A stretch of 37,894 nucleotides of DNA from Terriglobales bacterium. Its GTDB lineage: Bacteria; Acidobacteriota; Terriglobia; Terriglobales; Acidobacteriaceae. Position 1 is the first letter of the stretch. Each line of letters begins with the position of its first letter. The stretch lies in assembly GCA_035454605.1 (NCBI GenBank), contig DATIGQ010000189.1, positions 1-37,894 of the forward strand, read 5' to 3'. The notes under the pieces were generated by a model. The model saw only the letters and a program-made list of their open reading frames with translations, ran no database searches and had not been told where the DNA came from. Made by a program: the position numbers and the translations under genes. This document shows positions 1 through 29,232 of the stretch, in pieces.

Positions 1-1653
1 GGCGCCGGCGGTTCGCATGGCCGGCGGCGGGTAGGACGGCAGCGTCTCTTGCAGGCGCGTGTTGCGCTGCACTTCCAGCTCTTCGAACAGCACCGAAGGA
101 TTGATCACCGCCTTGGGGATGGCCTCGTTGCTGTTGTCGGCTTGCAGATCGTCGCCAGCGGCCACGATCTCGTTGCGCAAGGTTCGCATGTCCAGCTCGG
201 CGAAGGTGCCGCCGCGGACCAGCTCCATGCGCCCATCGTCGGTCCATACGCGGTACATCAGCTCCGGCACTACATTGTTACCGGATGCGGCGCTGTACAC
301 CAAGATGCCGTACGGCTTGCCCTGTTGCTTGCACATTTCGATGAGCTTCTGCTTCATCTCCTCGAAGGAGTATCCCGGATTGGCGCGCACAAACAAGTTG
401 GCAAAGCTGGCCACGGGCGCACCACCCGGCGCCGCGCGTCCGTGACCGTTGGACCGGGGAAAATCACGGATGGGCCGACGCCCAAGCAGGTAGTTGGTCA
501 GCATGCCCTTGTCGACTACTGTGACGGGCATGGCCGTGACCCCTTCGTCGTCCAGCTCATAGCTCCCCACCAGGGTGCGGCCGTTGAAGCTGGCGATGGT
601 GGGATCGTCCACCACGCTCAGGAAATCCGGCAGCACGCGGCTCTTGTAGTACGAGGCCCAGGGACCGGTCGTGCGGGCGGAATCGCTGGGCGCCGGCTGG
701 TCCCCGGTGATGGCCGGGCCGACCATGTTCCAGAAGATCATTTTGGCGGCGTCGGCGGCGAACAGAACCGGACCGCGGTACGTATCCTCCACCACGGGCG
801 CCTGGCGCAGTGCAGCGAGGTCGGCGATGAGTTTGCGCGCCGCTTCGCCCACCACTTCGGCGGACGGAAGCTCCTCCCCGCGGGCCATGACCCAGTCGCG
901 GCTCAGGCCCAGCCGCATGCCGTCCGGCGCCTGGCTGGATGCGGTGAAGTACAGGGTGTAATTCTCCCCGCCGCTGCGGCCCACTGTGCCTTCGGTATTC
1001 ACAAAGTAGCGGTTGACGCCGCGATATTCGAAATGGACATTGGCCGCGTCGATCTTGGGATCGTCGCGGAACAGGGCCGAGATATCACGCGCCAGGTCGC
1101 GACGGCCGTCCGGGTCCTTCTCTCCCGCAACCAGGGGGCCGATGGAGATCGTGCTCGCTTCGCGTGAGAAGTCGTCCACCGCGTGCTCGACCACCAAACC
1201 TTGGAGCATGGCCTGCTTCGCCGAGCGGGCCGCCAGGGCGTTCTTGTAAGCGGCGTCCGTGGCCAGCCAGAGCTGATAGCGCAGGGCCAGTTCATCGTCG
1301 CCCAGGGTGGCGAAAGCCACCTGTCCCTGGCCGGGGCCGAAATAGCTGTCGTTCTTGTAATCGCCCACCCGCACCACGGCCCGGATCAAGCGGCTGCGTT
1401 GGCGGTTCTCCTGCAGGAGGGCGCCAAACGCGGCATCCACCGAGTGTTCCTGCGCATCGGTCACCGAGTACTCGATGTAGTAAGGCCGATCGAGCTGTTC
1501 TAGTTGCAGCCGCGACCGCGAGCGCTCCAGCTCGGCGCTCATGGCGCGCAGCACGGGATAATCGCTGGTGCTCGGAGTGGGCTGCTGGGCGGGCGCGGAA
1601 ATCGCTGCCAGCACCACGACCGCCCCAGCCAGAAGCCAGCCGCCACGCTTCAT
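1..1653 (-). CDS. Exported TldD/PmbA-like protein without metal ligands (partial, C-terminus off the left edge)
   Basis: Reading the minus strand from ATG at 1653 gives 551 codons with no stop before the window edge, in frame to base 1. A signal peptide covers about residues 1-22 (hydrophobic LLAGAVVVLAAISAPA, then AQQ). The rest aligns over its whole length with the TldD-like protein encoded just upstream: shared blocks include PYYIEYSV, LPDFLSVVDDPT, DDEGV, SNGHGRA, KPYGI and LFEELEVQ. The zinc-binding HEVLGH of the neighbour is WNMVGP here (residues 308-313), and the C-terminal Cys ligand is also absent (the region reads GDDLQADNSNEAIP). It is therefore probably a non-catalytic partner, as TldE/PmbA is to TldD, though it is closer to its neighbour than to TldE (inference). 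The start overlaps the upstream stop codon as ATGA, indicating translational coupling. Few residues should be missing, because the sequence already extends past the last shared block. Confidence 0.88.
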   Translation of the reverse strand, partial: MKRGGWLLAGAVVVLAAISAPAQQPTPSTSDYPVLRAMSAELERSRSRLQLEQLDRPYYIEYSVTDAQEHSVDAAFGALLQENRQRSRLIRAVVRVGDYKNDSYFGPGQGQVAFATLGDDELALRYQLWLATDAAYKNALAARSAKQAMLQGLVVEHAVDDFSREASTISIGPLVAGEKDPDGRRDLARDISALFRDDPKIDAANVHFEYRGVNRYFVNTEGTVGRSGGENYTLYFTASSQAPDGMRLGLSRDWVMARGEELPSAEVVGEAARKLIADLAALRQAPVVEDTYRGPVLFAADAAKMIFWNMVGPAITGDQPAPSDSARTTGPWASYYKSRVLPDFLSVVDDPTIASFNGRTLVGSYELDDEGVTAMPVTVVDKGMLTNYLLGRRPIRDFPRSNGHGRAAPGGAPVASFANLFVRANPGYSFEEMKQKLIEMCKQQGKPYGILVYSAASGNNVVPELMYRVWTDDGRMELVRGGTFAELDMRTLRNEIVAAGDDLQADNSNEAIPKAVINPSVLFEELEVQRNTRLQETLPSYPPPAMRTAGA

Positions 1654-3383
1654 CGCAAGACCTCCAGAGGCCGGGCGCCGCTGTCGAACGCGGGCGGCGG
1701 CAGGATGGGAGGCCGGTTGCGCGAAACCGCCTTCTTCTGCACCTCGATCTCAGAGAACAGGATGGCCGGAGCCGCGGCCGATACCGGAACGTTGCCGCTC
1801 TCCGCTCCACAAATGCCATTGAAGACCTGGGTGGTGTCGCCGGTGATGATCAGCCGGTTCAGCGCCACCAGGGGCGTGCCTACGATGTCCACGCCGCGCA
1901 CCAGCTCGTCCGGGCGCCCATCGGGATACACGCGCCACACCATGATGGGGAGGATCTGGAACGCCTGCGGCAAGAAACGCGTCGTCAACGTGAAACCGCC
2001 GGCGATGTCCTCGAAGTACAGGCCATAGGGCTTGTTCTGGCGCTTCACCTCGTCAATCAGCTTCTGGCGCAGGTGGGCGTCGGGCACGGTGTGAGTGGAA
2101 CTGACAATGAGGTTGGCCTGACGCCCGACCGGCATCAGCCCTTCCTGGGCCCGGCCGTGGCCGTTGGACTCGGCGAAGCCCTGTACCGGCATGCGCGACA
2201 TGAGGAAGCCTCGCAGCACACCGTCCTTCACCACTTCCGCCCGCTGCCCAGGCACGCCCTCGTCGTCATATTGGTAGTAGCCGTTGAGCTCGACTCCGTC
2301 CAGGGTCTGCAGCGTGGGGTCGTCCACCACGCTCAGGAAGTCTGGCAGAATCTTCTGGTTCACTTTCTTCGCGAAGGTCTGGCCTTCCTCGTCGCCACGC
2401 TGCCGCTGGCCCTCCAGACGGTGCCCGAGCACTTCGTGGAAGAACACAGCGGCCGCCCGTCCGGAGAGCAGCGCCGGCCCGGCGTAGGGTTCCACCAGCG
2501 GCGCCTTACGCAGCGCGCGCAGGTCCTCGGCCAGCTTGTGGATCTTTGCGGCCACCATGGCCTCGTCGGGCAAACCGTCAGGCGAGGAGGCATCAAACGT
2601 CTCGGCGCGGAATAGCTCCATGCCATCATCGGTCCGCGTCTCCGCATAGGCGATCAGACGGGTGAGCGCCTCCGAAGTCAGAACGCGTGACCCCTCGCTG
2701 GAAACAAAGTAGCGGGTGGAAGTGTCTGTCACGAGAGTGACGTAAGAGCCGTAGATTTCCGGATACTCCCGGAACAGCCCGGAGAGGCGCTTCACCCGCT
2801 CCCGCCAGACCTCGCGATCCACCCGCGACGCCGTACCCGGCCTTCCGATAAACACTTGGGGCTTCTGGCTGCTGAAGTCCGGCGAAGAGTCTTCCTCCTC
2901 CGCCTTCACCTTGTGCTCCGTCTGTACTTCCAGCAGTGCGCGCGAGGCCACCTTGTACTGGCGGTCGGTGGTCAGCCATAGAGCGCGCGCTATCGCCGCC
3001 CGGTCATCCTCAATGGGCAGCAGCGTCGAACCCAAGCCGCTGGGGCGGCGATGATTATGCGTGTTGTCGAGCTGGTGGTTGCCGACGCGCACGGTCACGT
3101 CCACCGAGCGCACCTGCCGGGAGATGGGATCGAACAGATCTCCCTGGCTGCCAGAGACCACCTCCACGCGATGCTCAGAGGCCGCGTAGCTGATGTAGTA
3201 AGGAGCGGGTTTCGCTTTGGAAAGCTCCTGCATGGCACGGCTGAGCTCTTGTTCGAGCGTCTCCAGCAGCAGGGCCGAGGACGCATCCGGTGCAGCGGGC
3301 TTGGACGCGCCGCCGGTCGCCGGAATCGAAACCAGTATCCAGGTCAGAAGGACAGCAACAGGACGAACACGAAACTGACTCAT
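1650..3383 (-). CDS. Exported TldD-family zinc metallopeptidase
   Basis: 577 residues from ATG at 3383; the frame is open 27 codons further up, but only this Met is directly followed by a signal peptide (VAVLLTWILVSIPATGGA, about residues 9-26). TldD/PmbA proteins are zinc proteases that, as TldD/TldE heterodimers, trim peptides such as microcin B17 and PQQ-type precursors in the cytoplasm. This one carries the full TldD ligand set: HEVLGH at residues 316-321 (HExxxH) and Cys525 in FNGICG, the place of the third zinc ligand in E. coli TldD. It is longer than TldD (about 480 residues) because of an extra N-terminal region. The signal peptide predicts a periplasmic role, unlike E. coli TldD. 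The last base pairs overlap the next gene (ATGA), so the two are made together. No strong Shine-Dalgarno is visible upstream. The substrate is unknown. Confidence 0.9.
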   Translation of the reverse strand: MSQFRVRPVAVLLTWILVSIPATGGASKPAAPDASSALLLETLEQELSRAMQELSKAKPAPYYISYAASEHRVEVVSGSQGDLFDPISRQVRSVDVTVRVGNHQLDNTHNHRRPSGLGSTLLPIEDDRAAIARALWLTTDRQYKVASRALLEVQTEHKVKAEEEDSSPDFSSQKPQVFIGRPGTASRVDREVWRERVKRLSGLFREYPEIYGSYVTLVTDTSTRYFVSSEGSRVLTSEALTRLIAYAETRTDDGMELFRAETFDASSPDGLPDEAMVAAKIHKLAEDLRALRKAPLVEPYAGPALLSGRAAAVFFHEVLGHRLEGQRQRGDEEGQTFAKKVNQKILPDFLSVVDDPTLQTLDGVELNGYYQYDDEGVPGQRAEVVKDGVLRGFLMSRMPVQGFAESNGHGRAQEGLMPVGRQANLIVSSTHTVPDAHLRQKLIDEVKRQNKPYGLYFEDIAGGFTLTTRFLPQAFQILPIMVWRVYPDGRPDELVRGVDIVGTPLVALNRLIITGDTTQVFNGICGAESGNVPVSAAAPAILFSEIEVQKKAVSRNRPPILPPPAFDSGARPLEVLR

Positions 3384-3504
3384 GCTAGGTATTGAGTGTA
3401 CAGGAAGCCCGGAAGTTCCGTCGCCCCCCCTGGCACCGGCTGGTTCCGCTGGCAGACACCACAATTCCTGGGACAGTGCGGCCCAAAACCATCTCGCCGA
3501 AGAG

Positions 3505-3548: not shown

Positions 3549-4793
3549 ATGTCGAACCGGTTAAGATTCATGGGCTTGGCGCTGCTGGCGCTATTTGTGG
3601 TCGGAGTCTCGGTGGCAGCCCGAGCCGAGCAGAAGGCCTCTAAGAAGAACCCGAAGGTCCTGGTGATCGGGGTCAACGGAGCAGAGTGGGACTTCCTGCG
3701 TCCGTTACTGGTGCGAGGCGAGCTGCCCAACCTTGCCCGCTTGGTCAACAACGGGACGTCGGGATACTTGAAGACCATTTCTTCACCCAACTGTCCCAAG
3801 GTGTACACCACTTTCTTTACCAGCGCTCCTCCGTCCGAGAACGGAATCACAGGTTTTGTGGTGAATGGCCAGACGGCCAACACCCACATGCTGAAGGAGG
3901 AGCCCATCTGGTCCATTCTCTCCAAGAACGGGGTTTCGGTAGGCATGGCCAATGTGCCAGGCACTTTCCCCGTAATGCCTGTAGACGGCTACATGGTCAG
4001 CGGCATGCTCACCCGCGGCAAGGACTGCGAAGACGGCGTCCTGTGCGCTCCCAAGTTGACTGAAGTCGAAGGCGGCGATGCCGTTTACCCGGCTGCGCTG
4101 AAGGACGAGCTGCTGGCCAACGTAGGCGACTTCTACATCGACTGCTCCCGCATCCCCAAGCTGGAAGCTCTTGCCGGAAACGAAGCAGAAGGCGTCAACC
4201 AATGGTTGGCGAGAGTGGATACCATCCGCGCCCAGCAAACCAAGGTTTTTGATTACCTCTTGACCAAGTACCCCAAGGACTTCACCTTCCTGGTGCAGTC
4301 GTGCGAGGACCGCGTGGGTCATTGGCTCTATCCCATCCAGCCGCACAACGTGGGCTACAACGAGAAGGTCCACCGGGCACGCGTGGACGCGTTCCCCAAC
4401 CAGTACCGTGCCTTTGACAAAGTGCTGGGCATGATCCTGAAGCACGTAGATGAAAACACCTACGTGTTCCTGGTCTCCGACCACGGAATCAAGCCGCTGC
4501 GCTACGCCGACCATGGAGAGCATATGGACCATCCCATGGACAGCGTTATTGCCAAGCATGATTTCACCGATGGCGACGAGGTTCCGGGCGCTTTCATTGC
4601 CATGGGACCGGGCATCAAGAAGGGTGTCCAGTTGTCGGGTCTGCCGGTGAGCGCGTTCGATGTGGCGCCCACCATATTGCACCTCTACGGCATCCCGCAG
4701 CCCAAGCAAATGAAGGGTCGCGTGTTGACGGAACTGTTTGCGGACGGCACCAAGGTAGCGGAAGCTCCAGCCAAGACGGAGCACGCCCACTAA
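3549..4793 (+). CDS. Exported type I phosphodiesterase/nucleotide pyrophosphatase-family hydrolase (alkaline phosphatase superfamily)
   Basis: 414 residues with a signal peptide (about residues 1-26, ending ARA). The fold is recognisable from LPNLARLVNNGTSGYL, the nucleophile region VYTTFFTSAPPSENGI (probable nucleophile Thr87 or Thr88), EDRVGHW, the metal motif SDHG, the GEHMDH histidines and the C-terminal APTILHLYGIP. Family members hydrolyse phosphodiesters or pyrophosphates with two zinc ions. The first metal-binding Asp, usually in a G-(L/V/I)-D-G-(A/M) stretch, is Asn43 here (VIGVNGAEW). Activity may therefore be altered, or Asp48 might substitute; this cannot be settled from sequence. 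Several cysteines (NCPK, DCEDGVLC, IDCS, QSCED) fit a disulfide-bonded periplasmic protein. It is a single-gene unit between the divergent TldD pair and a convergent sulfatase-like gene, with its own promoter element and terminator. Confidence 0.85.
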   Translation: MSNRLRFMGLALLALFVVGVSVAARAEQKASKKNPKVLVIGVNGAEWDFLRPLLVRGELPNLARLVNNGTSGYLKTISSPNCPKVYTTFFTSAPPSENGITGFVVNGQTANTHMLKEEPIWSILSKNGVSVGMANVPGTFPVMPVDGYMVSGMLTRGKDCEDGVLCAPKLTEVEGGDAVYPAALKDELLANVGDFYIDCSRIPKLEALAGNEAEGVNQWLARVDTIRAQQTKVFDYLLTKYPKDFTFLVQSCEDRVGHWLYPIQPHNVGYNEKVHRARVDAFPNQYRAFDKVLGMILKHVDENTYVFLVSDHGIKPLRYADHGEHMDHPMDSVIAKHDFTDGDEVPGAFIAMGPGIKKGVQLSGLPVSAFDVAPTILHLYGIPQPKQMKGRVLTELFADGTKVAEAPAKTEHAH

Positions 4794-4811: not shown

Positions 4812-4845
4812 TCAGGCGCCCCGCTCAGGGCGCCTGATCCTTTTT
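4812..4845 (+). terminator. Intrinsic terminator of the phosphodiesterase gene, embedded in the end of the opposing gene
   Basis: A perfect 10-bp stem (TCAGGCGCCC at 4812-4821, GGGCGCCTGA at 4828-4837) with a 6-base loop is followed by TCCTTTTT. It lies 19 bases past the plus-strand stop. The loop and left arm contain the stop and last codons of the minus-strand gene 4825-6768, and the T tract is the complement of its Lys-Lys codons. Confidence 0.85.
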
Positions 4846-6768
4846 GAGCAGCAATGCGGCTTGGGCTTCGGCGCGTTGCGCTTCCTCCGTTCGGCCCAAA
4901 CCGCGATAGGACTGGGCCAGCAGACGGTAGAGCTCTGCGCTCGGCTCGGTTTGCGCAGCACGCTCCAACTGACGGGTGGCGTCCGCGTATCGCTTCTCAC
5001 CCAGCAATATGCGGGCCAGTTCGACTCGTGCCGTAGCCGCTTTCGGCCGCAGCAGCACTGCGGCCTCGAGTTGGTCGCGGGCAGCGTTGGCGTCTCCCAG
5101 ACGCGCGTAGACACGACCCAGAAGCAGGCGTGCCTCGTACTGGCCGGGAGTGAGGCGTAGGGACTCGTTCAGAGCATCGCGGGCCCCCGCCAAGTCGTTT
5201 AGCTTCTCCAATGCCTGGCCTTGATACCAGGCGGCCGCGGCATCGTTGGGACGCAGCGTGCGAGCGCGCGCCAGGTGCCCGGCAGCCCTGGCGTAGTCGC
5301 CTTGCGCCAGCTCGATCTGGCCTAGCTGCAGGAAGGCCACCGCGGACGTCGCGTCCATCGCGATCGCCTCTTCCAGGGCAGCGCGGGCGATGCCGGGTTG
5401 TCCGCCTTCATCGGCCATCAGGGCGCGATGCAGCAGATTTTGGAGCTCAATCTTGTCCTTGGGGTCCGGAAGCAACGAGGGTTCGGGCACGTTGGTCTGC
5501 CCGGGATCGGTACCAAGATATCCCAGCGCCTTCAGGTGTTCCAGGGTCTCCTGCGGAACCTGCCCGGCGCTCCTCGCGGCTTCCGTGTTCGATCGGATAT
5601 CCGCGAGCACGGCGCGCGCCGCTTGCACCTTTGGACTCCAAGGCTCGTAAACGTTGCGGGTTTCGCCGGGGTCCGTCGCCAGATCGTAGAACTCCGGCCG
5701 CGGCGCCTCGATGAACTTGGAATTCTCGCGCCGAACCGATCGCAGCGGCGCCCACCCAAAACGCAGCGGGTAATCAGTCTCCCCAATAGCCGGGGCTTCC
5801 GGCAGCGCTTCCCCGCTCAGAAGCGGCGTGAGCGAGCGGCCCTGAAGCTCTTCGGGTACGTTCATTTTCAATTGGGCGAGCACGGTCGGCAGGATGTCGA
5901 TCGTGCGCACCTGGGTCGCATTGCTGCTGCCAGCACCGGCTCCACCTGGGAGCTTCACCATCAGGGGCACATGCAGGGTGGAGTCATAGAGGAAGATGCC
6001 GTGGGTCTCTTCCTTGTGCTCGCCCAGGCCTTCGCCGTGGTCCCCGACCACGACGATGAGCGAGGAGCGGTAGCGCTGCTGGCGGTCCAGATAAGCCAGC
6101 AGCTTGCCCAATGCGGCGTCGGCGTAGGCAATCTCGCCGTCGTACGGGTGGTCGCGAAATGTCTCTGCGAATGGGGCTGGCGCTTCGTAGGGATCGTGCG
6201 GATCATAGAGATGCACCCACACAAAGCGCGGCCCACCCCGGTTTCGCTCCATCCACTGGATGGCTCTCTCCACCACCTCCATCCCTCGCCGCTCCACCCT
6301 GCCCCAGCGGGGCGTGGACTTGGGGAGGTTCGGGAAGTTGTCGTAAGAGTCGAAGCCGCGGTCCAGACCCGGCGCCAGACTGCTGCTGTCGAGAATCACC
6401 GCTCCAATGAACGCCGCGGTATGGTAGCCGTGCTGCTTCAGCAGTTGCGCCCAGGTGGCGTGCGCACCGGCCAGGGGCACTCCGAAATCGGTGACGCCGT
6501 GCGCGCTTGGCAGGAGTCCAGTGAGAATGCTGGCATGGGAGGTGTTGGTGATCGGGCTGGGAGTGAAAGTACGAGAGAAACGGATGCCGTCGCGACACAG
6601 CCGATCGAGGGTTGGAGTTTGACCCTTTTCGTAACCGTAGCAGCCGACGTGGTCGGCCCGCACGGTGTCCAAGGTGATCAGGTAGACGTCCGGTTGTCGC
6701 TGCGCCAGGGTGCGCGGAGCGGACGCCAGCATCAGCAGGAAGACAAGAAAATATCTCTCCAAACGCAT
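4825..6768 (-). CDS. Exported sulfatase-fold hydrolase fused to TPR repeats (paralogue A)
   Basis: 647 residues from ATG at 6768. A signal peptide (about residues 1-22, ending TLA) precedes a sulfatase/alkaline-phosphatase-superfamily domain (about 25-430) and a C-terminal half of roughly six TPR repeats (about 440-640). Metal-site signatures are VYLITLDTVRADH near residue 34 and VVGDHGEGLGEH further on. The position where sulfatases carry the formylglycine motif C/S-x-P-x-R reads T-N-T-S-H (Thr74-His78). It is thus not a standard formylglycine sulfatase; a Thr nucleophile is used by related phosphodiesterases and phosphoethanolamine transferases. The TPR part probably binds protein partners. 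It is divergent from two close paralogues (B and C) across a 131-bp gap. Sulfatase, phosphatase or phosphotransferase activity are all possible. Confidence 0.88.
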   Translation of the reverse strand: MRLERYFLVFLLMLASAPRTLAQRQPDVYLITLDTVRADHVGCYGYEKGQTPTLDRLCRDGIRFSRTFTPSPITNTSHASILTGLLPSAHGVTDFGVPLAGAHATWAQLLKQHGYHTAAFIGAVILDSSSLAPGLDRGFDSYDNFPNLPKSTPRWGRVERRGMEVVERAIQWMERNRGGPRFVWVHLYDPHDPYEAPAPFAETFRDHPYDGEIAYADAALGKLLAYLDRQQRYRSSLIVVVGDHGEGLGEHKEETHGIFLYDSTLHVPLMVKLPGGAGAGSSNATQVRTIDILPTVLAQLKMNVPEELQGRSLTPLLSGEALPEAPAIGETDYPLRFGWAPLRSVRRENSKFIEAPRPEFYDLATDPGETRNVYEPWSPKVQAARAVLADIRSNTEAARSAGQVPQETLEHLKALGYLGTDPGQTNVPEPSLLPDPKDKIELQNLLHRALMADEGGQPGIARAALEEAIAMDATSAVAFLQLGQIELAQGDYARAAGHLARARTLRPNDAAAAWYQGQALEKLNDLAGARDALNESLRLTPGQYEARLLLGRVYARLGDANAARDQLEAAVLLRPKAATARVELARILLGEKRYADATRQLERAAQTEPSAELYRLLAQSYRGLGRTEEAQRAEAQAALLLKKDQAP

Positions 6769-6839: not shown

Positions 6840-6899
6840 GTGAGCGTTGTCCAGTGCGGCTGACCTCCCGAGGTTGGGTTCGCGCTTTTCTTGACCCTG

Positions 6900-8900
6900 A
6901 TGTCCGTCCTTATCCCCAGAATCCTGCAATTTCGCGCCCAAGCCTCTTTGTTCTTGCTCCTCACGGCGATTGCCGCGCCGGCCGGAGCTCAAACCGGGCG
7001 CGGTGCCGCCCGTATCGCCCCGCCCAATGTCATCCTCATTACCATCGACACTTTGCGTCCCGACCATCTGAGCTGCTACGGCTACGAACGACTCCGCACC
7101 ACGAACATTGACGCCCTGGCCGCCGACGGAGTGCTGTTTGAGAAGGCCTACACTCCCGTCCCCATCACGCTGCCCTCGCACGGTTCGTTGTTTACTGGCA
7201 CCTATCCCATGCGCACCGGGCTGCATGACTTCAGCGGCAACCGGCTGAATCCGGAACAGCCGACCCTCGCGGGAGTGCTCCGGCGGCGCGGGTATGCTAC
7301 CGGCGCCGTGGTAGGGGCGGCGGTGCTGGATTCGCGCTTTGGTCTGAATTCCGGCTTCGATTTCTATTACGACCGTTTTGATTTCAACCGCATGCTGGAA
7401 ACCAACCTCGACGCCATGGAGCGCCCGGGCAACGTCGTGGCAGACGAGGCCCTGGCCTGGCTGCGCAAGAATGCGCACCGTCGTTTCCTGCTGTGGATGC
7501 ACTTGTACGACCCCCATCATCCCTATAATCCGCCGGCGCCTTACGACCAGCAGTATGCGGATTCACCCTATGATGGGGAGATCGCATTTGCCGACGCTCA
7601 GGTCGGGCGGATCATCTCCTACCTAAAGCAGCAGGGGCTCTATGGGCGGACGCTCATCGTGCTGGCCGGCGATCACGGAGAAGGGCTGGGCGAACACGGA
7701 GAAAAGACCCATGGGTTTTTCATCTACAACACCACGATGCGCGTGCCTCTCATCGTCAAGCCCGCTGCTCGTGAGGCTGCAACGGTGAAGCGGGTTGCGG
7801 AACCGGTGAACCTGGTAGATGTCTTGCCTACTACGCTCGAACTGTTGAAACTACCCGTGCCTCCAGAAGTCCAAGGACGGAGCTTGCTGCCTCTTCTCCG
7901 AGGCCAGCAGACGGAACGCGTCAGTGACCTGTATGGCGAGTCCTTCTTGCCGCGCCTGCATTTCAACTGGAGTGAATTGCGCGGTATTCAGGTGGAGAAC
8001 TACCACTTCATCGATGCTCCCAAGCCGGAGCTCTATGACGTGGCCGCGGATCCCAGCGAACGCACCAACCTGATTGAGCAGAAGCCCGCCGTGGCCAGCG
8101 AACTGCAGAAGAAGCTGGCAGACCTGATTGTGAACTACTCAGCAGGAAAAGAAATGGCGGAAAAGACGGGATTGGATCCAGCCATGGCCGAGCGCCTGCA
8201 AGCGCTGGGCTACGCGGCGTTCTCTGGCGGCGGCAACCCCACCATCAGCAATCGCGAACTGCCAGACCCGAAGGATCGGATCGAGATGTATGAACTGGTA
8301 TCCGAGGCGCTCAACCTGAGCCAGCGCGGGCGCTATGACGAGTCCATCGAGAACCTGAAGAAGGCCGTGGCGATCGAGCCGACATCGGTCCCGACCCACT
8401 ACCTGCTGGGGCTGAATTATTACCGGAAGCAAGACTGGGCCAGCGCCGCGATCGAGTTCGAGCTGGTTCTGAAGGCCAGTCCCGATTACACGCTGGCCGT
8501 ATTCAACCTCGGCCTGGCCAAGGCACGGCTGGGTGAACGAGAGGAGGCGGCGCGCCTGCTGCGGCGCACGCTCGAACTCGATCCCAGCAATTTCACAGCC
8601 GCCTTCGACCTGGGTGCATTGCTGCTGCGGATGCAGCGGGTTCCCGAGAGCCTTGAGGCCTTTCGCCAGTCCATTAGGATCCTGCCGAGCTTCGGACCAG
8701 CCCATCGGGCGATTGGAGAAGTGCTGCTCTACCAAGGCAAACCGGATGAGGCGCTGGTGTCACTGCGTACCGCTTTGCGCCTCATGCCCAACAATTCAGC
8801 CGTCCGTGTCTCTATCGCTAAGGCACTGGAAATGAAGGGCTTACACCAGCAGGCACAGGAGGAGCTGCGGAAAGCCCGGTCCGGCGGATCGGCGGAATAG
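6900..8900 (+). CDS. Exported sulfatase-fold hydrolase fused to TPR repeats (paralogue B)
   Basis: 666 residues from ATG at 6900; an in-frame TTG at 6891 is possible, but neither has a strong Shine-Dalgarno. The signal peptide spans about residues 8-30 (ASLFLLLTAIAAPAGA). The catalytic domain (about 42-425) shows VILITIDTLRPDH, VPITLPSHGSLFTG and LAGDHGEGLGEHGEKTHG. The nucleophile position is Thr90 in T-L-P-S-H instead of the sulfatase C/S-x-P-x-R. DPKDR marks the linker into about six TPR units that run to the C-terminus. The next gene starts two bases after the stop, so B and C form an operon and are probably translated together. The substrate is unknown; the close relationship of A, B and C suggests local duplication followed by specialisation. 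Confidence 0.88.
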   Translation: MSVLIPRILQFRAQASLFLLLTAIAAPAGAQTGRGAARIAPPNVILITIDTLRPDHLSCYGYERLRTTNIDALAADGVLFEKAYTPVPITLPSHGSLFTGTYPMRTGLHDFSGNRLNPEQPTLAGVLRRRGYATGAVVGAAVLDSRFGLNSGFDFYYDRFDFNRMLETNLDAMERPGNVVADEALAWLRKNAHRRFLLWMHLYDPHHPYNPPAPYDQQYADSPYDGEIAFADAQVGRIISYLKQQGLYGRTLIVLAGDHGEGLGEHGEKTHGFFIYNTTMRVPLIVKPAAREAATVKRVAEPVNLVDVLPTTLELLKLPVPPEVQGRSLLPLLRGQQTERVSDLYGESFLPRLHFNWSELRGIQVENYHFIDAPKPELYDVAADPSERTNLIEQKPAVASELQKKLADLIVNYSAGKEMAEKTGLDPAMAERLQALGYAAFSGGGNPTISNRELPDPKDRIEMYELVSEALNLSQRGRYDESIENLKKAVAIEPTSVPTHYLLGLNYYRKQDWASAAIEFELVLKASPDYTLAVFNLGLAKARLGEREEAARLLRRTLELDPSNFTAAFDLGALLLRMQRVPESLEAFRQSIRILPSFGPAHRAIGEVLLYQGKPDEALVSLRTALRLMPNNSAVRVSIAKALEMKGLHQQAQEELRKARSGGSAE

Positions 8901-8902
8901 GC

Positions 8903-10996
8903 GTGAGCTACCGACGCAGAACCGTGACAGCGCTTCTGGCGGTGGCCGCGGTATGCCTGCCGTCGGTGGCACAGACGACTCGAAAGCGGCCCGTTCATAC
9001 TCTCCGGCCTAACGTGTTGCTCATCACCATTGATACGCTGCGCGCCGACCGCATCGGCGCCTACGGCGCCACCAACGTCTCCACGCCCGGCATGGACGCC
9101 TTGGCCAAGGACGGCATCCTCTTCGAGCGGGCTATCGCGCAGGTTCCTCTCACGCTCCCTTCCCACGCCGGCATCCTGACCGGCATGTATCCTTTTTCCA
9201 ATGGGGTGCAGGACTTCACGGGGCAACCGCTGGCACCGCAGTTCCGCACCCTGGCCCAGAGTCTGAAACAGAATGGCTACACCACCGGAGCTATCGTCAG
9301 TTCGTTCGTGCTGGACCGGAGCTGGGGACTGTCGCGCGGCTTCGATTTCTACTTTGACATGTTCGCCGGCACCAGCTTCCTGACTCACGACCTGGCGCTG
9401 GTGGAGCGCAAGGGTAACCTCAGCACCGACCGCGCCCTCGAATGGCTGACCAAGGTTTCGGCCCGGCCCTTTTTCCTCTGGCTCCATCTGTACGACCCCC
9501 ATAGCCCCTACGATCCCCCGGAGCCGTTTCGTACTCAATACACCGGTCGTCTCTACGACGGCGAAGTGGCGTTCGCCGATTCGCAGTTGGCACGCGTGAT
9601 CGAGTGGCTGAAGAAACGCCGCCTGTATGACAACACACTCGTGATCCTGGTGGCCGACCATGGTGAATCTCTGGGTGAGCATGGAGAGAACGAGCACGGC
9701 TTCTTCATCTACAACTCCACTGTGCACGTACCGCTCCTTGTCAAGCCGCCCGCGCGCGTGACCGTGCGTGAGCGGCGGGTCGAGCGGCCAGTAGAGATCC
9801 TGGCGGTCGCGCCTACCATCTTGGGTGTGCTGGGCATAGGCGATGAGATCCAGAAGCAGTTCCAGGCGCAGAGCCTGCTCGAAGCGGCTTCCGAAGAACA
9901 GGCAGAATCATATAGCGAAACCTTCTACACCTTCAGCTCCTTCGGATGGAGTCCGCTGCACAGCCTGCAGACCGAACGGTACCACTATATCGAGGCGCCT
10001 AAACCGGAGCTGTACGACGTCGTGGTAGATCCGGGGGAGAAAGACAACCTTGTCGAGAGCCAGCCCGCCGTGGCCGCCGTTCTGAAGGAGAAGCTCGCAG
10101 GATTGCAGCGCCGCTTCCCTGCCCCGACCCAGCAGCCGGGAGCCGGGGGGCTGGACGCGGAGACCATCGAGAAGCTGAGCGCGCTCGGTTACGTCGGCTT
10201 TCGTACTTCAGTGACGGCGGAACAGCTTGCCGCCGGCCTCGCGGACCCCAAGGATCGGGTGTGGGAGTTCAACACCATCCTGCGTGCCATTGATCTGGCG
10301 CAATTGAAGGATTACGAAAAGAGCCGCGTGCTCCTGGAACAAGTGAGGGAGAAGGAACCCAACATGTACGTCATCCCGTTCATGCTGGGCGAGGCAGCCT
10401 TGCAGCAGGAGGACTGGGTAACCGCCGCCAAGGAGCTCAAGCGTTGCCTGGAACTGAATCCCAACTTCGACCAGGCGATGACGGCGGTGGCGCGAGCCCT
10501 GCATGCGCTCGATCAGACGGAAGAAGGCATGCAGTGGCTCGACAAGGCGCTGAAGCTTAATCCGAACAACACTCGGGCCCTGTACCAGCGCGGCTGGATG
10601 CAGTTGAAGAACAATCCCGACGCAGCCGCAGCGTCGTTTCAGAAAGTCATTGATATCCAGCCGCACTTCGCGTTGGCGCGCCGCGACCTGGGCATCCTGC
10701 GCATCCGTCAGCAACGCTTCGCGGATGCGGCTGAGCACCTGGCAGAAGCTTACCGCCTCGGATTGAACGATTACCGCTTGCTGAATTTCCTGGGCATTGC
10801 CTACGGCCAAACCGGACAGACCCGGAAGGCCGTCGAAGTCTATCGAACCGCCCTCCGTGAAAAGCCGGATTTTGCTGAAGCCCATCTGAACCTGGCAGCC
10901 GCGCTGGAAAGGCTCAAGCAGCCGCAGGCAGCTCGGGCGGAGTATGAGGAAGCCTGCCGCCTGGAGCCGAAGTTCTGTCAGTATGTGCCGCGCTAA
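8903..10996 (+). CDS. Exported sulfatase-fold hydrolase fused to TPR repeats (paralogue C)
   Basis: 697 residues starting with GTG at 8903, two bases after the stop of paralogue B. The signal peptide covers about residues 8-23 (TALLAVAAVCLPSVA). The catalytic domain carries VLLITIDTLRADR, VPLTLPSHAGILTG (nucleophile position Thr84, motif T-L-P-S-H) and LVADHGESLGEHGENEHG. The C-terminal third has about seven TPR repeats, the last ones very regular. As in A and B there is no C/S-x-P-x-R, so formylglycine activation is not expected. The TPR stretch is the longest of the three. Only nine bases separate its stop from that of the convergent carboxypeptidase-regulatory/TPR gene, and no convincing terminator with a T tract is visible between them. 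Confidence 0.88.
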   Translation: MSYRRRTVTALLAVAAVCLPSVAQTTRKRPVHTLRPNVLLITIDTLRADRIGAYGATNVSTPGMDALAKDGILFERAIAQVPLTLPSHAGILTGMYPFSNGVQDFTGQPLAPQFRTLAQSLKQNGYTTGAIVSSFVLDRSWGLSRGFDFYFDMFAGTSFLTHDLALVERKGNLSTDRALEWLTKVSARPFFLWLHLYDPHSPYDPPEPFRTQYTGRLYDGEVAFADSQLARVIEWLKKRRLYDNTLVILVADHGESLGEHGENEHGFFIYNSTVHVPLLVKPPARVTVRERRVERPVEILAVAPTILGVLGIGDEIQKQFQAQSLLEAASEEQAESYSETFYTFSSFGWSPLHSLQTERYHYIEAPKPELYDVVVDPGEKDNLVESQPAVAAVLKEKLAGLQRRFPAPTQQPGAGGLDAETIEKLSALGYVGFRTSVTAEQLAAGLADPKDRVWEFNTILRAIDLAQLKDYEKSRVLLEQVREKEPNMYVIPFMLGEAALQQEDWVTAAKELKRCLELNPNFDQAMTAVARALHALDQTEEGMQWLDKALKLNPNNTRALYQRGWMQLKNNPDAAAASFQKVIDIQPHFALARRDLGILRIRQQRFADAAEHLAEAYRLGLNDYRLLNFLGIAYGQTGQTRKAVEVYRTALREKPDFAEAHLNLAAALERLKQPQAARAEYEEACRLEPKFCQYVPR

Positions 10997-12102: not shown

Positions 12103-15100
12103 CTAGAAGGTCAGCTTCAAGCCGAACTGCAGGTTGCGCGCGTTGAACGTGCCCCCAGACTTTCCAAACGCCGCCCTGCGGATTTCGTTATTACCCGCAC
12201 CCTGGGCGCCGGGAAGCTGGAAGTTCGTCCGGTTGAAGGCGTTGAAGAACTCCGTCCGGAACTGGAGACCCACCCGCTCGGTGATCTTGAAGTTCTTGAA
12301 CACCGAGGGGTCCCAAACCCACAGGTTCGGGCCCACGAACTGGTTCCGGCCCAGATTACCGGGGCTCCCAAGAGGCGGAGCAGAAAACACGGTGCCTCCG
12401 GGATATTGCCACTGGGCGGCGCCGAAACCGTTGGCCCACATCGAGTGGGTAGCGGCATCGAACGACGAGAAGGTGGAATTGGGCCGTTCGTTGGCTTCCG
12501 CGTCCTGGTTGAAGTCACACGCTCCACGGCTGCTGCAGAACGGGCTCCAGTGAGCTCCGGTCTGGAAGCTCATGATGCCGTTAAGCTGCCAGCCGCCGAA
12601 TACCGCCTCCGCGAATCCGCCCCGGCCCTTGAAGAAGGGCATCTCCCAGACGTAGTGGAAGACGATGCGATGCCGGATGTCGAAGATCGAGTTGCTGCGA
12701 TCCAGATCCGGCAGCGTCATGTCGGTCGTATAGCCTTCGCCGGCGGCGGCACCGTTGGCGCTGGTGGCGCCGCTGTGCCAGGTAGAGCCACCATCCAGCG
12801 CGTGGCTCCAGGTGTAGTTGAAGGTGAAGGTCAAGCCCTTGGACATCTGCTTGCGCAGGGAGGCCTGCAGTGCGTTGTAGCTTGAACTCACCGAGTTCCG
12901 CCAGTTGCGCAGACGTCCGTAGTTGGGGTTGAGCCGGCTACCCGTACCGGTGAGTGTCCGCCCGAAGATGTCGACCACCGTCGCACCCGGGGCCATAATG
13001 CTTCCCGGAACGCGGTTGATCTGCTCCGCGCGAAACAGCTTGGTTCCCTTCGTGCCGACGTAGTTCAGTTCGAGCACCCACTTGGGAGCCAACTCCCGTT
13101 GGATGCCGAAGAACCAGTTCATCACGTAGGGATCGCGGATGCCTTCCGGCAGGACGATACCGGTGAGGAAGCCCAGGTTGGCATTCGCCGGATTCCAGGC
13201 CTGGATGTTGCCCACCGCGGTCGCGTCGCCCGCATTGCCCTGGAAGTTATTAGGATCCGCGTCGCCGATATAGGAAGGAGCCACCGCGCAGGCCGGGCAG
13301 GTGCCGCCGCCGGACTGCGGACCGTACGGAGCTTCGGGTCCGCCCCCTGTGTCATTCGTGAATGCGAGGTTGAACGAATAGTACGGCAGGTTCCAGCGCG
13401 AGTTCGAGAGCGGGTTGTACAGCGTGCCCTCGTAGGAAACACCGTAACCTCCGCGCAAGGACGTCTTGCCGTCACCGAACACATCCCAGGCGAAGCCCAC
13501 GCGCGGACCCCAGTTGTTGTGGTCGCCCGCACCCAGCGAATCGGCCGGGGAGAAGCCGCCCGGACCGCAGACACCCGCCAACTGCGCAAACGGGATCTGC
13601 GTGACCGGATCGTCGCAGCCCGGATCGCCCGCAGGGATGTTCGCCGAGAAGATCTGGCCGGCGTGAGTGGTAACGTCATCCACCAGGTTGTTGCCTGGCC
13701 CCAAGAGGAACGTGGTTTCCAGGTCGTTCTGCTCGTTATGGCGCGCGTACAGGTCGTAGCGGATCCCCAGGTTCAGGGTCAGGTTGCGCGTGACTTTCCA
13801 GTCATCCTGAAAGTAGAAGCCGTATTCCCAGTTGCGGAAGTGCCGGATATTGCTGGCCAAGTGCGAGGGCGCGCCGGATACGATTCCAGGATCCACGCCG
13901 GCTACCAGACCGTACGGCGCATCCACGGCGAAGTGCAACGGGTCGATGAAGTAATACGACGGCCGGCCCACGTTGAATTCGCTGTTTTCGATGTTACGGC
14001 GGATATCCGCCCCCATCTTCAGGCTGTGGTTCCCCTTGGTGATGGAAACCATGTCCGCGTAGCTGTAGATGTGCTCCTTGAAGAACTGCGGGTAGCCGTT
14101 GTAGGAGCCGAAGCCCATGGTGCCATCCGTTAGGTAAATGGAAGGCACGCCCGGAATGCCGGCGACGTACCTGGAGTAGCTGCCCGCGTATCCGAAGCGG
14201 AACTCATTCAGGATGGTGGGGCTGAAGGTGTGGATGTAGTTGAACTGTCCGTTGGGGAAGGTAAAGCGGGTGGGGTTGATGAACCCACGGCCGCCCGTGG
14301 TGCCGCCCAGGGTGTCGTTCTGCTGTCCATAGGCGAACTGGGCAAAGATGCGGTCGTTCTGCCCCACGTTCCAGTCGATGCGGGCCGAGTACTCATTGCC
14401 ATCCCGCAGGTTGGCTTGCAGCCGGCTGGGCGCGATGTTAAGACCTGCGTTAAGGGCGTTAGCATCGCGGTTGAAGCTTCCCAGAGGAGCCTGAATGGCC
14501 GGAATCGTCGTACAGCCGTCGGCCATCAGCTGCGCCTGGTCCCCCGCGGTCACGCCAATCAGGTTAGCGATGTTTGCGCTGGTGGCGGCGTTGCCGGTGA
14601 AGTCCGGACAGAGGCCGAAATACCCATCGCCGACGAGGTCATTGAAGCTACCGATGGGGTTGCCCTGAGCGAAGGGAATGAAATCGGCGTACAGCAAGGA
14701 CGAAACGGAACCATTCGCGCCGCCACCCGCCGTGCCCGGACCGAAGGTCGAGATGACGGCAGCACGGAACTCCGGACTCTCAATGACCGTGGGTACCGGG
14801 TTGCTGAAGGTCCGGAAGCGGTTCCCCTGATAGGACAGGAAGAAGAACAGCTTGTCCTTGAAGATGGGTCCGCCAAAAGTGCCGCCGAACTGGTTGAAAC
14901 GCAATGGGCATTTCAAGTGCTCGGGCGCGTCGCCGCCCTGGTTGCAGGGAGCCGCCGGGTCGCCCGCCTCACTGGCGAAGAACGGCTTGGCGTCGAACAC
15001 GTCATTGCGCACGAACCACCAGCCGCTGCCGTGGAAGCTGTTGGTGCCGCTCTTGGTCACCAAGTTGGTGACGGAGCCGGCGCTGTTTCCGTACTGGGCG

Positions 15101-15768
15101 GAGTTGTTGAGGGTCAGGAGTTGGAATTCAGCCACCGTGTCCTCGATGGGACGGTTGATGGCGCCACCGCTCAGGCCCTTGTTAGACACGCCGTTGATGA
15201 GGAACCCGTTGAAGTTCAGGCGAGTGCCGTTGACCACCGCGTCCTCACCGTTTTCCGTGAGCACGCTATCCACGTTCACCGCTCCGGGCGCAAGCTGGAG
15301 CAGCGAGAACACGTTGCGGCCGTTCAACGGCAGGTTCTGAATCTGCGTGGAACCCACTGTGTTGGCCAGTTTGGAGTCCACGGTGTTGACCGGGGCAGCT
15401 TCCTCGGTTACTTCCACCACTTCAGAAGCGCCGCCGACTTCCAACTTGAAGTCCAAACGGTAGGTCACGCCGGCGTTGACTTCCACACCGGACTTGCTGG
15501 AGGTCTTGAAACCGGAGGCCTCGACCGTCACTTTGTAGGTCCCGATCTGCAACTCACGGATGAGGAAACCTCCCGTGTTGCTGGTCTGTGCGCTGGTCTT
15601 GAGGTCGGTGCCGACGTTGGTCGCCGTCACCTTCGCGTTCGGTAGGGCTGCCCCTGTGGGGTCGGTCACCGTGCCGGTGATCTGCCCGTTCTGGACCTGG
15701 GCCATGGCGGTCATCGCACACAGCACCACAGCCACCAAAGCAAGGCTAAATCGAACTCGATTGTGCAT
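12103..15768 (-). CDS. TonB-dependent outer-membrane receptor with N-terminal carboxypeptidase-regulatory domain (receptor E)
   Basis: 1221 residues from ATG at 15768, supported by a GGAGG-rich ribosome binding site (GGAGGGGGTAAGA) and a signal peptide (about residues 1-23, ending AMA). Residues 25-110 are a carboxypeptidase-regulatory/Cna-B-like fold (GQITGTVTDPTGAALPNA). A plug domain follows (IQNLPLNGRNVFSLLQLAPG near 143-162), then a large beta-barrel ending in the terminal aromatic strand FGLKLTF, the usual outer-membrane signature. Such receptors in Acidobacteria resemble Oar-type proteins and are thought to import or bind large substrates using TonB energy; no TonB or ExbBD gene is in the window. 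Repeated Cys pairs (for example CNQGG...KCPL, TCPAC, FCSSRGAC) suggest disulfide-locked loops. It is paralogous to the adjacent receptor F. The ligand is not deducible. Confidence 0.92.
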   Translation of the reverse strand: MHNRVRFSLALVAVVLCAMTAMAQVQNGQITGTVTDPTGAALPNAKVTATNVGTDLKTSAQTSNTGGFLIRELQIGTYKVTVEASGFKTSSKSGVEVNAGVTYRLDFKLEVGGASEVVEVTEEAAPVNTVDSKLANTVGSTQIQNLPLNGRNVFSLLQLAPGAVNVDSVLTENGEDAVVNGTRLNFNGFLINGVSNKGLSGGAINRPIEDTVAEFQLLTLNNSAQYGNSAGSVTNLVTKSGTNSFHGSGWWFVRNDVFDAKPFFASEAGDPAAPCNQGGDAPEHLKCPLRFNQFGGTFGGPIFKDKLFFFLSYQGNRFRTFSNPVPTVIESPEFRAAVISTFGPGTAGGGANGSVSSLLYADFIPFAQGNPIGSFNDLVGDGYFGLCPDFTGNAATSANIANLIGVTAGDQAQLMADGCTTIPAIQAPLGSFNRDANALNAGLNIAPSRLQANLRDGNEYSARIDWNVGQNDRIFAQFAYGQQNDTLGGTTGGRGFINPTRFTFPNGQFNYIHTFSPTILNEFRFGYAGSYSRYVAGIPGVPSIYLTDGTMGFGSYNGYPQFFKEHIYSYADMVSITKGNHSLKMGADIRRNIENSEFNVGRPSYYFIDPLHFAVDAPYGLVAGVDPGIVSGAPSHLASNIRHFRNWEYGFYFQDDWKVTRNLTLNLGIRYDLYARHNEQNDLETTFLLGPGNNLVDDVTTHAGQIFSANIPAGDPGCDDPVTQIPFAQLAGVCGPGGFSPADSLGAGDHNNWGPRVGFAWDVFGDGKTSLRGGYGVSYEGTLYNPLSNSRWNLPYYSFNLAFTNDTGGGPEAPYGPQSGGGTCPACAVAPSYIGDADPNNFQGNAGDATAVGNIQAWNPANANLGFLTGIVLPEGIRDPYVMNWFFGIQRELAPKWVLELNYVGTKGTKLFRAEQINRVPGSIMAPGATVVDIFGRTLTGTGSRLNPNYGRLRNWRNSVSSSYNALQASLRKQMSKGLTFTFNYTWSHALDGGSTWHSGATSANGAAAGEGYTTDMTLPDLDRSNSIFDIRHRIVFHYVWEMPFFKGRGGFAEAVFGGWQLNGIMSFQTGAHWSPFCSSRGACDFNQDAEANERPNSTFSSFDAATHSMWANGFGAAQWQYPGGTVFSAPPLGSPGNLGRNQFVGPNLWVWDPSVFKNFKITERVGLQFRTEFFNAFNRTNFQLPGAQGAGNNEIRRAAFGKSGGTFNARNLQFGLKLTF

Positions 15769-15857
15769 TCTTACCCCCTCCCGGAGGTGAATCCAGGGTC
15801 GGTTCCTTAACATCATGGTTGGTCTTGTACCCCAAAATGGACACAACAAGCCTTGAA

Positions 15858-15881
15858 ATTCTACCGTCACACATGCATGTG
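15858..15881 (-). promoter_or_regulatory. Possible promoter with overlapping palindromic operator for receptor E
   Basis: On the minus strand TAGAAT (15863-15858) is a possible -10, about 90 bases before the start codon. Directly upstream lies the perfect 12-base palindrome CACATGCATGTG (15870-15881), in the spacer of such a promoter, where a repressor could block RNA polymerase. No good -35 is seen. The palindrome is directly visible; the regulatory role is inference. Confidence 0.3.
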
Positions 15882-16023
15882 ACGTGCCTAAATCTTCTTA
15901 TTGAAAACAAAGGGGTTAGCAGGACACACTCAGATTGAGAATACGGATAAAGGAAAGTAAGGGCCAGGGTGGTACCAATTTTCATATTCCTTACCTACCT
16001 AGTGGGCTAAGTAGCTGATTTGT

Positions 16024-21827: not shown

Positions 21828-22864
21828 TCGCGAACCCGTCCCGTAGCCATTCCGCCGGTCTGCTCTTGCTGCGCCTTGAGCTCCTGGAAGCGTGCGAGGT
21901 GCTGTTGCGCTTCTTCTGTGCGGCCGGACTTCTCCAGCGCGCGCGCCAACTGGAAGTGCGCGCTGGCGTCGTTGGGGTCGAGTTCGAGCGCCCGGCGCAG
22001 CGCCACAATCGCTTTCTCTGTCTCGCCCAGGAGCAGCAGAGCTTTGCCCAGATCGTAGTGCGCAGCCTGGTTGGAGGGATCGAGCGCAACCGCTCGCTCC
22101 AGATGCTGCACGGCTTCGTTCCATTCGCCCGATTCGAGCAGCGTATGCCCCAACTGATAGAAAACTTCGGGATTGTCCTGTCGCGCCGCCAGCTCCTTCC
22201 GGTATTCAGCGATAGCCTCCCGGTTCCGGCCCAGGGCACCGTAGGCGAAGCCGAGATGGTAATGCCCCAGTGGCAGCCGCGGATCGAGCGCGAGCGCCTT
22301 GTGGAACACGCGGATGGCATCGAGGGTGCGGTTGGAATTGAGATAGGCCCGCCCCAACAGAACGTGATCCATCGCCGAGCGCGGGCTCAGCGCGATGACT
22401 TTCTCCAGTTGCTCGGCGGCGGGCGCATACTGCCGTTCCGCCAGATACACGAGCGCGAGGTCGTGATGAATGTCAGCGCTACGTGGTGCGAGACGCGCTG
22501 CGTGTGTCAACTGTTCGAGAGCCGGCTGATTCCTGCCACTCTGGAATAGCGCCAGCCCCAGCAGGTGGCGAAGGCCGGGATCCTGTGGCCAGCGTTCGAC
22601 CGCTTCAACGCCCAGCACCGCACCCCGGTCGGGGCGCCTGCCCTGCAGGTAGGCAAGCAGCAGCGAGCGGGTAATCTCGCGGTCAGCCGGCGCCAACCCG
22701 TGTGCTTCTTCGAGTTTCGCTACGGCTGCTGTAACGTTACCCCCTTCGAGCGCCCGTCGCCCCTGGGCCGCGAGTGCTGCGGCGCTTTGCGCACCTGCCA
22801 AGGGGCACATGACGAGGGCGGCAAGAATCGTAACGAAGGTCACCCGAGGGGCACTGCGAGCCAT
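21824..22864 (-). CDS. Exported TPR-repeat protein, coupled to the CRTAC1-like gene
   Basis: 346 residues from ATG at 22864 with a signal peptide (VTFVTILAALVMCPLAGA). About eight TPR repeats occupy residues 30-330, many with the canonical A-x-x-x-L-x-x-A-L-x-x-P pattern. There is no enzyme domain; TPRs provide protein-binding surfaces. The last repeat (RALEKSGRTEEAQQHLARFQ) matches the last repeat of the TPR part of the 1181-residue fusion at 32468-36013 (RALQRRGQTEQAREHLARFQ), so the two are homologous at the junction to the FG-GAP part. The stop overlaps the next start by four bases. The cupin gene on the same strand ends 59 bases upstream, so co-transcription with it is possible. Confidence 0.88.
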   Translation of the reverse strand: MARSAPRVTFVTILAALVMCPLAGAQSAAALAAQGRRALEGGNVTAAVAKLEEAHGLAPADREITRSLLLAYLQGRRPDRGAVLGVEAVERWPQDPGLRHLLGLALFQSGRNQPALEQLTHAARLAPRSADIHHDLALVYLAERQYAPAAEQLEKVIALSPRSAMDHVLLGRAYLNSNRTLDAIRVFHKALALDPRLPLGHYHLGFAYGALGRNREAIAEYRKELAARQDNPEVFYQLGHTLLESGEWNEAVQHLERAVALDPSNQAAHYDLGKALLLLGETEKAIVALRRALELDPNDASAHFQLARALEKSGRTEEAQQHLARFQELKAQQEQTGGMATGRVRE

Positions 22865-24623: not shown

Positions 24624-24668
24624 GCCATGCTCCTCAGATTCATCCTACCGGCCGTTGATTCCCGGCCG

Positions 24669-29151: not shown

Positions 29152-29232
29152 TGAAATCACTCCGGAAAGATGCCAAGGATAAGATGCAACACCGGCCGCC
29201 AAGTTGCGGCCTGATAGTAGCGCGGAGATGGC

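Follow-up and report, generated by a model that had tools for sequence, protein, structure and literature searches.

The closest described relative of the system treated here is TldD/TldE of Escherichia coli (TldE is also named PmbA; MEROPS M103; PDB 5NJ5 and others), which its structural account (PMC5810440) presents as a hollow heterodimer around a metal site found in TldD only, able to bind peptide backbones and thought to trim unfolded N-termini. That account also describes the helix with the HExxxH motif of TldD as distorted, having one residue more than the HExxH of thermolysin, reports the distortion to be absent from TldE, and names two insertions of TldD, the "clamp" and the "brace". 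Such a fold with its metal site, and likewise the principle of joining an active to an inactive subunit, are already known (MEROPS M103; PMC10885120). The subject of this report is a pair of genes, P1 and P2, at the start of contig DATIGQ010000189.1 of a Terriglobales bacterium (Acidobacteriota; assembly GCA_035454605.1), a contig (C189) of 37,894 bases that was analysed whole and is called the window in what follows.

The two proteins are like TldD and TldE in fold, in the HExxxH and Cys of one of them and in the absence of ligands from its partner. The E. coli subunits have no signal peptide and are cytoplasmic, whereas P1 and P2 have export-like N-termini; tldD and tldE lie ~1.07 Mb apart, whereas P1- and P2-type genes are adjacent or fused at nearly all loci; in P1 and P2, which belong to a different clade, Pfam finds only the C-terminal domain; and the dead P2-type proteins keep a helix length and part of a clamp that TldE is without. 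It is quite probable, in our view, that the pair makes up an exported zinc metallopeptidase with the TldD/TldE fold, P1 being its active subunit and P2 a dead one that evolved independently. Export, pairing and a 1:1 stoichiometry are supported, at the level of sequence, by the N-termini, the gene order, two gene fusions and congruent divergence, while the dimer, its activity and its substrate are what we infer from these.

Intact and dead sites in adjacent genes

The original prediction, made from the letters of the stretch, described two genes that share an ATGA, a first protein that keeps HEVLGH (residues 316-321) and Cys525, and a second that has WNMVGP at the equivalent place, and with all of this the sequence agrees. 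It also gave both proteins a signal peptide, which fits the export-like N-termini found on both by our own hydrophobicity heuristic, used in place of SignalP; its statement that P2 is free of Cys was mistaken, for P2 has Cys441, away from the ligand place. Cys525 is the single Cys of P1. By the same heuristic, export-like hydrophobic N-termini (best 10-residue mean of ~2 or more) recur in 19 of 21 P1-type proteins, those of G020 and G052 failing, and in 20/20 unfused P2-type proteins.

When 61 related genomes, the present one included, were searched with P1, 21 close copies were found in 19 genomes, each followed immediately by a P2-type gene, which in one case (L047) is fused to the P1-type gene in a single frame. 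The first protein holds the whole site in 21/21 of these pairs and the second keeps two ligands in none of them, that of G003 keeping one His, at the first place; because the intact/dead pattern is repeated in all 21 related pairs, it is more than chance. A scan of genome_contigs gave at least 565 relatives, the best 80 of which were kept as loci. These 80 are mostly Acidobacteriota by title, plus Aminicenantes, and include metagenome-assembled genomes titled Planctomycetota, Elusimicrobia, Myxococcaceae and others. In 78 of them the P2-type protein has its own frame, downstream and on the strand of the P1-type gene; one (L113) is the second of the two natural P1-P2 fusions; and the remaining one (L077) has none within the locus, the P2-type gene of that genome lying ~9.5 kb downstream, again on the P1-type strand. 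Of 297 genomes sampled evenly across the phylum, 51 contained the family, called at E 1e-40. With two genomes of an unpaired form (G101 and G280) left out, a P2-type gene was present in 48 of 49: adjacent in 46, with its start at the contig end in G267, and on a different contig in G115. The one miss (G275) has a contig that stops ~300 bases past the P1-type gene.

Read over all aligned rows, in which some genomes occur twice (e.g., L073/G010), the four residues H, E, H and C are present in 100/100 active rows, and the 94 inactive rows keep at most one ligand, a His in five of them and in no case the Cys. This count covers frames of at least 430 aa; the cut or split inactive frames of L074, L103, L131, L108, L089 and L137, the locus L077 with no inactive frame, and the split active frame of L147 were omitted. 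The P2-type proteins have a conserved residue set of their own.

Family membership and the probable separate origin of the dead subunit

P1 and P2 share 31% identity over 568 alignment columns (BLASTP 1e-75), and since this extends over nearly the whole length they are paralogues. The PmbA/TldD C-terminal domain PF19289 was recognised above its cut-off in P1 (303-549, 1.9e-26) and in P2 (294-529, 2.5e-22); a Pfam search at E 0.001 matched neither the N-terminal PF01523 nor the central PF19290 in either protein, and Pfam coverage comes to only ~43% of their length. The NCBIfam models of TldD and PmbA score both proteins far under their cut-offs, those of the TldD equivalogs being missed by P1 with scores of 81 vs 635 and 54.8 vs 513.

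In the main tree (80 rows, 469 columns, a quick method), P1-type, P2-type and unpaired (X-type) proteins form one clade with a Shimodaira-Hasegawa-like approximate likelihood ratio (SH-aLRT) support of 100 over the whole length, apart from classical TldD, from TldE and from the types found on contigs C145 and C205 of the same genome. The clade also has 100 in a tree of the N-terminal part and in one of the C-terminal part from which the ligand columns had been removed. A constraint that joins all inactive subunits, applied to 29 rows chosen from the 80, made the log-likelihood 143 worse and gave a p-value of 0.000128 in the approximately unbiased (AU) test, which rejects the view that every inactive subunit goes back to one origin. 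P1 does not group with TldD, nor P2 with TldE, in the trees or the AU test, so that clustering with the classical proteins, the outcome the original prediction had named as speaking against it, did not occur. A long-branch effect would tend to pull the P2-type proteins toward TldE, opposite to the grouping observed. The P2-type proteins were united with 99 in the 80-row tree, 100 in a later tree, 100/100 in a careful tree and 100 in the C-terminal tree.

The helix and the clamp bear on the same question. Counted over the alignment columns of E. coli TldD 250-271, the helix segment has 22 residues in 21/21 P2-type proteins, as in all active proteins, vs 21 in 12 of 13 classical TldE, and the clamp columns hold 7-27 residues (median 12) in P2-type proteins vs one residue in 13/13 classical TldE. 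A TldD-type helix length together with a remnant of the clamp means that the P2-type proteins probably descend from an active enzyme, and suggests for that enzyme a TldD-type site. In the P1-type proteins themselves, Glu270 and Arg362 (E. coli TldD numbering; clamp-tethering) are kept in 22/22 rows, Lys456 is replaced by Ala in 21/22 and Asp272 by Gln or His in 20/22; given the last two replacements, the clamp tether would be built differently.

The pair is on this evidence an old branch of the TldD/TldE fold, predicted to be exported, and the division into active and dead subunits would have evolved separately from that of TldD/TldE, probably once, inside this family. The view of P2 as a copy of P1 held in part: the two are paralogues, but both come from an old ancestor, probably an active one, and P2 as a recent copy is rejected at 31% identity. 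That they form a separately evolved pseudo-enzyme pair, as first proposed, is borne out by the trees and by the recurrence of the intact and dead sites, with the dimer remaining the conjectural part of the proposal.

The genome has eight PF19289 matches, two each on contigs C104, C145, C205 and the window. On C104 the inactive frame matches E. coli TldE and the active frame, which the contig start truncates, contains HExxxH, so that this looks like a classical TldD/TldE pair. On C205 a TldD-like protein (L015:785-2392, plus strand) has TRRRFLELTG, which resembles a twin-arginine translocation (Tat) signal. It is followed by the gene of an inactive partner (L015:2413-3807, plus strand) that has no Tat-like signal. 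This pair is possibly a Tat hitch-hiker and a second exported TldD-type pair of the genome; it resembles P1/P2 in joining a TldD-like protein to an inactive partner and in being probably exported, and differs in its Tat-like signal on the active subunit only, in an Asp that replaces the ligand Cys and in its clade. The Asp-for-Cys swap is noted for Gemmatimonas in PMC5810440. The family can also be expanded within one genome, G068 (the genome of locus L136) having 20 PF19289 matches.

Unpaired active relatives

In a sample of 146 genomes centred on a genome titled Myxococcaceae, the family (E 1e-40) was present in 94, of which 87 gave a single match. Ligands were read in the 16 stretches that were fetched from this sample: two hold a pair (L196 and L202) and 14 a lone member with HExxxH, 13 of which have NG-x-CG-x-E, the one off the pattern (L192) being without an export-like N-terminus. 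The unpaired proteins mostly have export-like N-termini by eye. The X-type representatives (e.g., L187-L191, L193-L195 and L201) fall, where placed in the tree, into the clade of P1 and P2, and resemble P1 in HExxxH with NG-x-CG-x-E, in the export-like N-terminus and in that only PF19289 is recognised (in L187, the one scanned); they differ from the pair in having no P2-type partner in the fetched stretch, nor genome-wide in 18 genomes. With those 18 and the two genomes from the phylum sample, G101 and G280, a search with a P2-type profile found no P2-type gene in 20/20 genomes with the unpaired form, the profile returning the unpaired protein itself (E <=7.4e-89) and further matches that are weak (best 5.3e-13). 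The dead partner is therefore not obligatory in this family. Some genomes have both the pair and the unpaired form (e.g., G466, and L196 and L197; L197-L200 are also from such genomes). In G101 and G280 the unpaired active form has no export-like N-terminus. Unpaired active proteins of this kind from two genomes of the phylum (L179:7268-8917 and L180:7485-9155, both plus strand) cluster with L192 of the myxobacterium-centred sample.

Structure models and congruent divergence

The natural fusion L113 (1113 residues) was modelled from an alignment of 16 rows, with a mean predicted local distance difference test score (pLDDT) of 82.6 and a predicted template modelling score (pTM) of 0.81; the alignment was restricted to fusion-like and inactive rows because inactive rows had aligned to the wrong half in two mixed alignments. 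Its first half matches E. coli TldD (5njf_C) with Z 29.2 over 441 residues at a root-mean-square deviation (rmsd) of 3.3. P2 alone was modelled with pLDDT 90.4 and pTM 0.88 and matches the TldD chain 5nj5_C with Z 30.9 over 429 residues at rmsd 3.6, and in VIA-align the TldD chains (Z 30.4-30.9) stand above the TldE chains (25.3-28.5). The latter come from TldE/PmbA structures (1VL4, 3QTD, 3TV9, 1VPB and 6J6A) that share with P2 an inactive TldD-like fold and differ in clade, the P2-type proteins lying outside that of TldE. The two-domain TldD/TldE fold is seen in the P2 model and in the first half of L113. For the modelled arrangement of the L113 halves it is the global pTM, and not an inter-half error (predicted aligned error), that speaks. 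The distances among P1-type proteins correlate with those among their P2-type partners (21 partners, r 0.84), none of 2000 permutations being as high.

Proposed mechanism

Both subunits would be secreted through the general secretory (Sec) pathway and would meet in the periplasm as a 1:1 pair that forms a hollow shell like that of E. coli TldD/E. By homology, the metal of P1 would be held by His316, His321 and Cys525, with Glu317 as the base, and P1 would trim the ends of unfolded peptides that thread into the cavity. P2 would form the other half of the shell, where it would stabilise P1 and restrict access and might hold the peptide backbone, without cleavage. The likely role is ATP-free clean-up or processing of unfolded exported peptides, and a shell protease that needs no ATP would be well placed in the periplasm. 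A bolder idea, which we put forward as doubtful, is that a dead subunit with a TldD-type helix and a partial clamp offers a second, non-cutting cleft that holds the substrate or feeds it to the active half; the pair could then be an ATP-independent, processive trimming machine of the periplasm, related to a solitary exported enzyme that is common among myxobacteria today, and, with the same reserve, the TldD fold might be said to have given rise to an active/inactive heterodimer twice.

Evidence to the contrary and rival explanations

Several observations weigh against the reading of P1 and P2 as a shell pair of separate origin. Neither P1-type nor P2-type proteins form one clade in the N-terminal tree; the unity of the P1-type is weaker than that of the P2-type (88, 99, 67/98 and 56 in the 80-row, later, careful and C-terminal trees, respectively), and the branching order of P1-type, P2-type and unpaired proteins is poorly supported (40/7 in the careful tree). 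The best matches of P2 in PDB and NCBIfam are TldE-like (TldE/PmbA), and Foldseek ranks TldE first for the P2 model. Among the marks of ancestry, P2's own clamp is reduced, with 7 residues in the clamp columns; Arg362 and Glu270, which belong to the clamp and the salt bridge in active proteins, are mostly lost in the P2-type; the brace columns do not discriminate, as 10 of 13 classical TldE have the 10 or 11 residues of the P2-type; and the six inactive partners of the C145/C205 kind vary in helix length (21 in three, 22 in two, 24 in one). The complex was modelled as the fusion of another bacterium, whose tether could force the halves into proximity, and three rows of that alignment are neighbouring genes read through a stop codon. 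Linkage alone would give much of the distance correlation. A constant neighbour pointing to a substrate was not found among 101 loci with flanks of unequal length, no cluster being present in more than 21.

It is also conceivable, if unlikely, that P1 is a homodimer, as its unpaired relatives would have to be if they act as dimers, and that P2 shares no shell with it, forming a homodimer of its own or acting as a regulator (a holder of peptides, a chaperone or an inhibitor). The unpaired relatives, with no P2-type gene in any of the 20 such genomes searched, favour this, as does the P2-type gene of G115 on a different contig, and there are precedents in TldE homodimers that have been crystallised and in a TldD homodimer of Sulfolobus reported to be active, both as told in PMC5810440; the two natural 1:1 fusions, the near-constant adjacency and the confident model of the fusion speak for a common shell.

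An exported pair with another chemistry, such as de-N-acylation of small molecules or the processing of one dedicated exported peptide, we regard as improbable. Judging by its title, a review by Vobruba of 2022 counts N-deacetylases in the family. No constant neighbour suggests general proteolysis, and two of the three residues of the E. coli clamp salt bridge are changed in the P1-type (Lys456 and Asp272), with Glu270 kept. Set against this, no part of the metal site is missing, and TldD binds peptides regardless of their sequence, as its description states (PMC5810440).

Far less credible is an ordinary TldD/TldE pair that acquired signal peptides, its inactive subunit being of single origin with TldE. 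The fold and the active/inactive division are indeed alike, and the TldE-like first matches of P2 in PDB, NCBIfam and Foldseek fit it, but it runs against the AU result, the support of 100 that the clade of P1-type, P2-type and unpaired proteins receives from the N-terminal and the C-terminal part alike, the active-type helix length and partial clamp of the P2-type, and the classical-looking pair that the genome has on C104 as well.

That P2 is a decaying duplicate without function is hardly tenable and was rejected by its dN/dS and its retention: the active site is gone and P2-type proteins are less conserved than P1-type (mean identity 0.32 vs 0.46, 21 partners), but the P2-type gene is retained in 48/49 P1-type genomes with the one miss at a contig end, has conserved residues of its own, and has a ratio of nonsynonymous to synonymous change (dN/dS) of ~0.11 against one relative. 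In that comparison (Nei-Gojobori method, NG86, against G001) P1 has dN 0.067 and dS 0.845 and P2 dN 0.078 and dS 0.706, so both are under purifying selection relative to the one genome compared.

Relation to described systems

In the open-licence PubMed Central literature we found no description of an exported TldD-type active/dead pair, and as far as that literature was searched the novelty lies in the exported pair and its separate origin, in what the dead subunit inherited, in the fusions and in the unpaired relatives. A TldD has been reported in the culture supernatant of Leptospira, alongside cytoplasmic proteases such as ClpP and HslU (PMC5881292). If the reading of an exported pair with an independently evolved dead subunit is true, it would be a second independent pseudo-enzyme partner within one protein fold, and TldD-type proteolysis, described for the cytoplasm and for the maturation of ribosomally synthesised and post-translationally modified peptides (RiPPs), would extend to the periplasm. 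Both states are extant, as unpaired active enzymes and as pairs with a dead partner, along with the two natural fusions, and the benefit of a dead subunit is therefore directly testable by comparison.

Gene organisation and surroundings

Features of the P1/P2 locus, with positions in the window
Feature	Position	Strand	Basis or remark
P1, predicted active subunit (exported TldD-like zinc metallopeptidase), 577 aa	1650..3383	minus	stop included
P1 putative Sec signal peptide, residues ~1-26	3306..3383	minus	hydrophobicity heuristic; cleavage place guessed
HEVLGH, zinc-binding/catalytic motif, P1 316-321 (= E. coli TldD 262-267; E. coli ligands after PMC5810440)	2421..2438	minus	alignment
P1 Cys525, putative third zinc ligand (= E. 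coli TldD Cys454)	1809..1811	minus	alignment
ATGA, P1 stop (TGA) sharing bases with P2 ATG	1650..1653	minus	
GGAGG ahead of P2, probable ribosome-binding sequence	1661..1665	minus	function inferred
P2, inactive paralogous subunit, 551 aa visible	1..1653	minus	C-terminus lost at contig end
P2 putative Sec signal peptide, residues ~1-23	1585..1653	minus	hydrophobicity heuristic; cleavage place guessed
WNMVGP, P2 308-313, replacing HExxxH	715..732	minus	alignment
P2 Cys441, away from ligand position	331..333	minus	sequence and P1/P2 alignment
TACACT, -10-like hexamer, 11 bases before P1 start	3395..3400	minus	by eye

P2 is truncated because the contig ends with the window; the homolog in G001 can be aligned as far as P2 residue 549 and has a frame that stops four residues later, so that P2 is probably short of only a few residues. 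No evident ribosome-binding sequence is seen by eye between the TACACT and the start of P1, which is possibly leaderless, and a consensus scan gave no sigma-70-type promoter. By eye, TAnACT stands 9-14 bases before the P1-type ATG in 7/10 pairs, mostly with no evident ribosome-binding sequence, and GGAG stands upstream of the P2-type gene in 7/10; the P1-type genes may have leaderless mRNAs. A tblastn search of 72,556 plasmid records with P1 gave no match at 1e-20, and so no hint that the gene resides on plasmids.

Around the 101 loci, the commonest neighbour (21 loci) is by eye an M48-type peptidase on the opposite strand, and others are LptF/LptG-like (13 loci), cation efflux protein-like (11) and M28-type peptidase-like (6). 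In the window itself, three sulfatase-TPR fusion proteins stand in a row (4825-6768, minus; 6864-8897, plus; 8822-10993, plus), adjoined by a phosphodiesterase-type protein (3549-4793, plus). Further along are a large outer-membrane barrel with a carboxypeptidase-regulatory domain (12106-15897, minus), an FG-GAP/UnbV protein (20034-22205, minus), and methionine sulfoxide reductases of both the SelR and the PMSR type (24219-24644 and 28681-29232, both minus), with ~5 kb between them.

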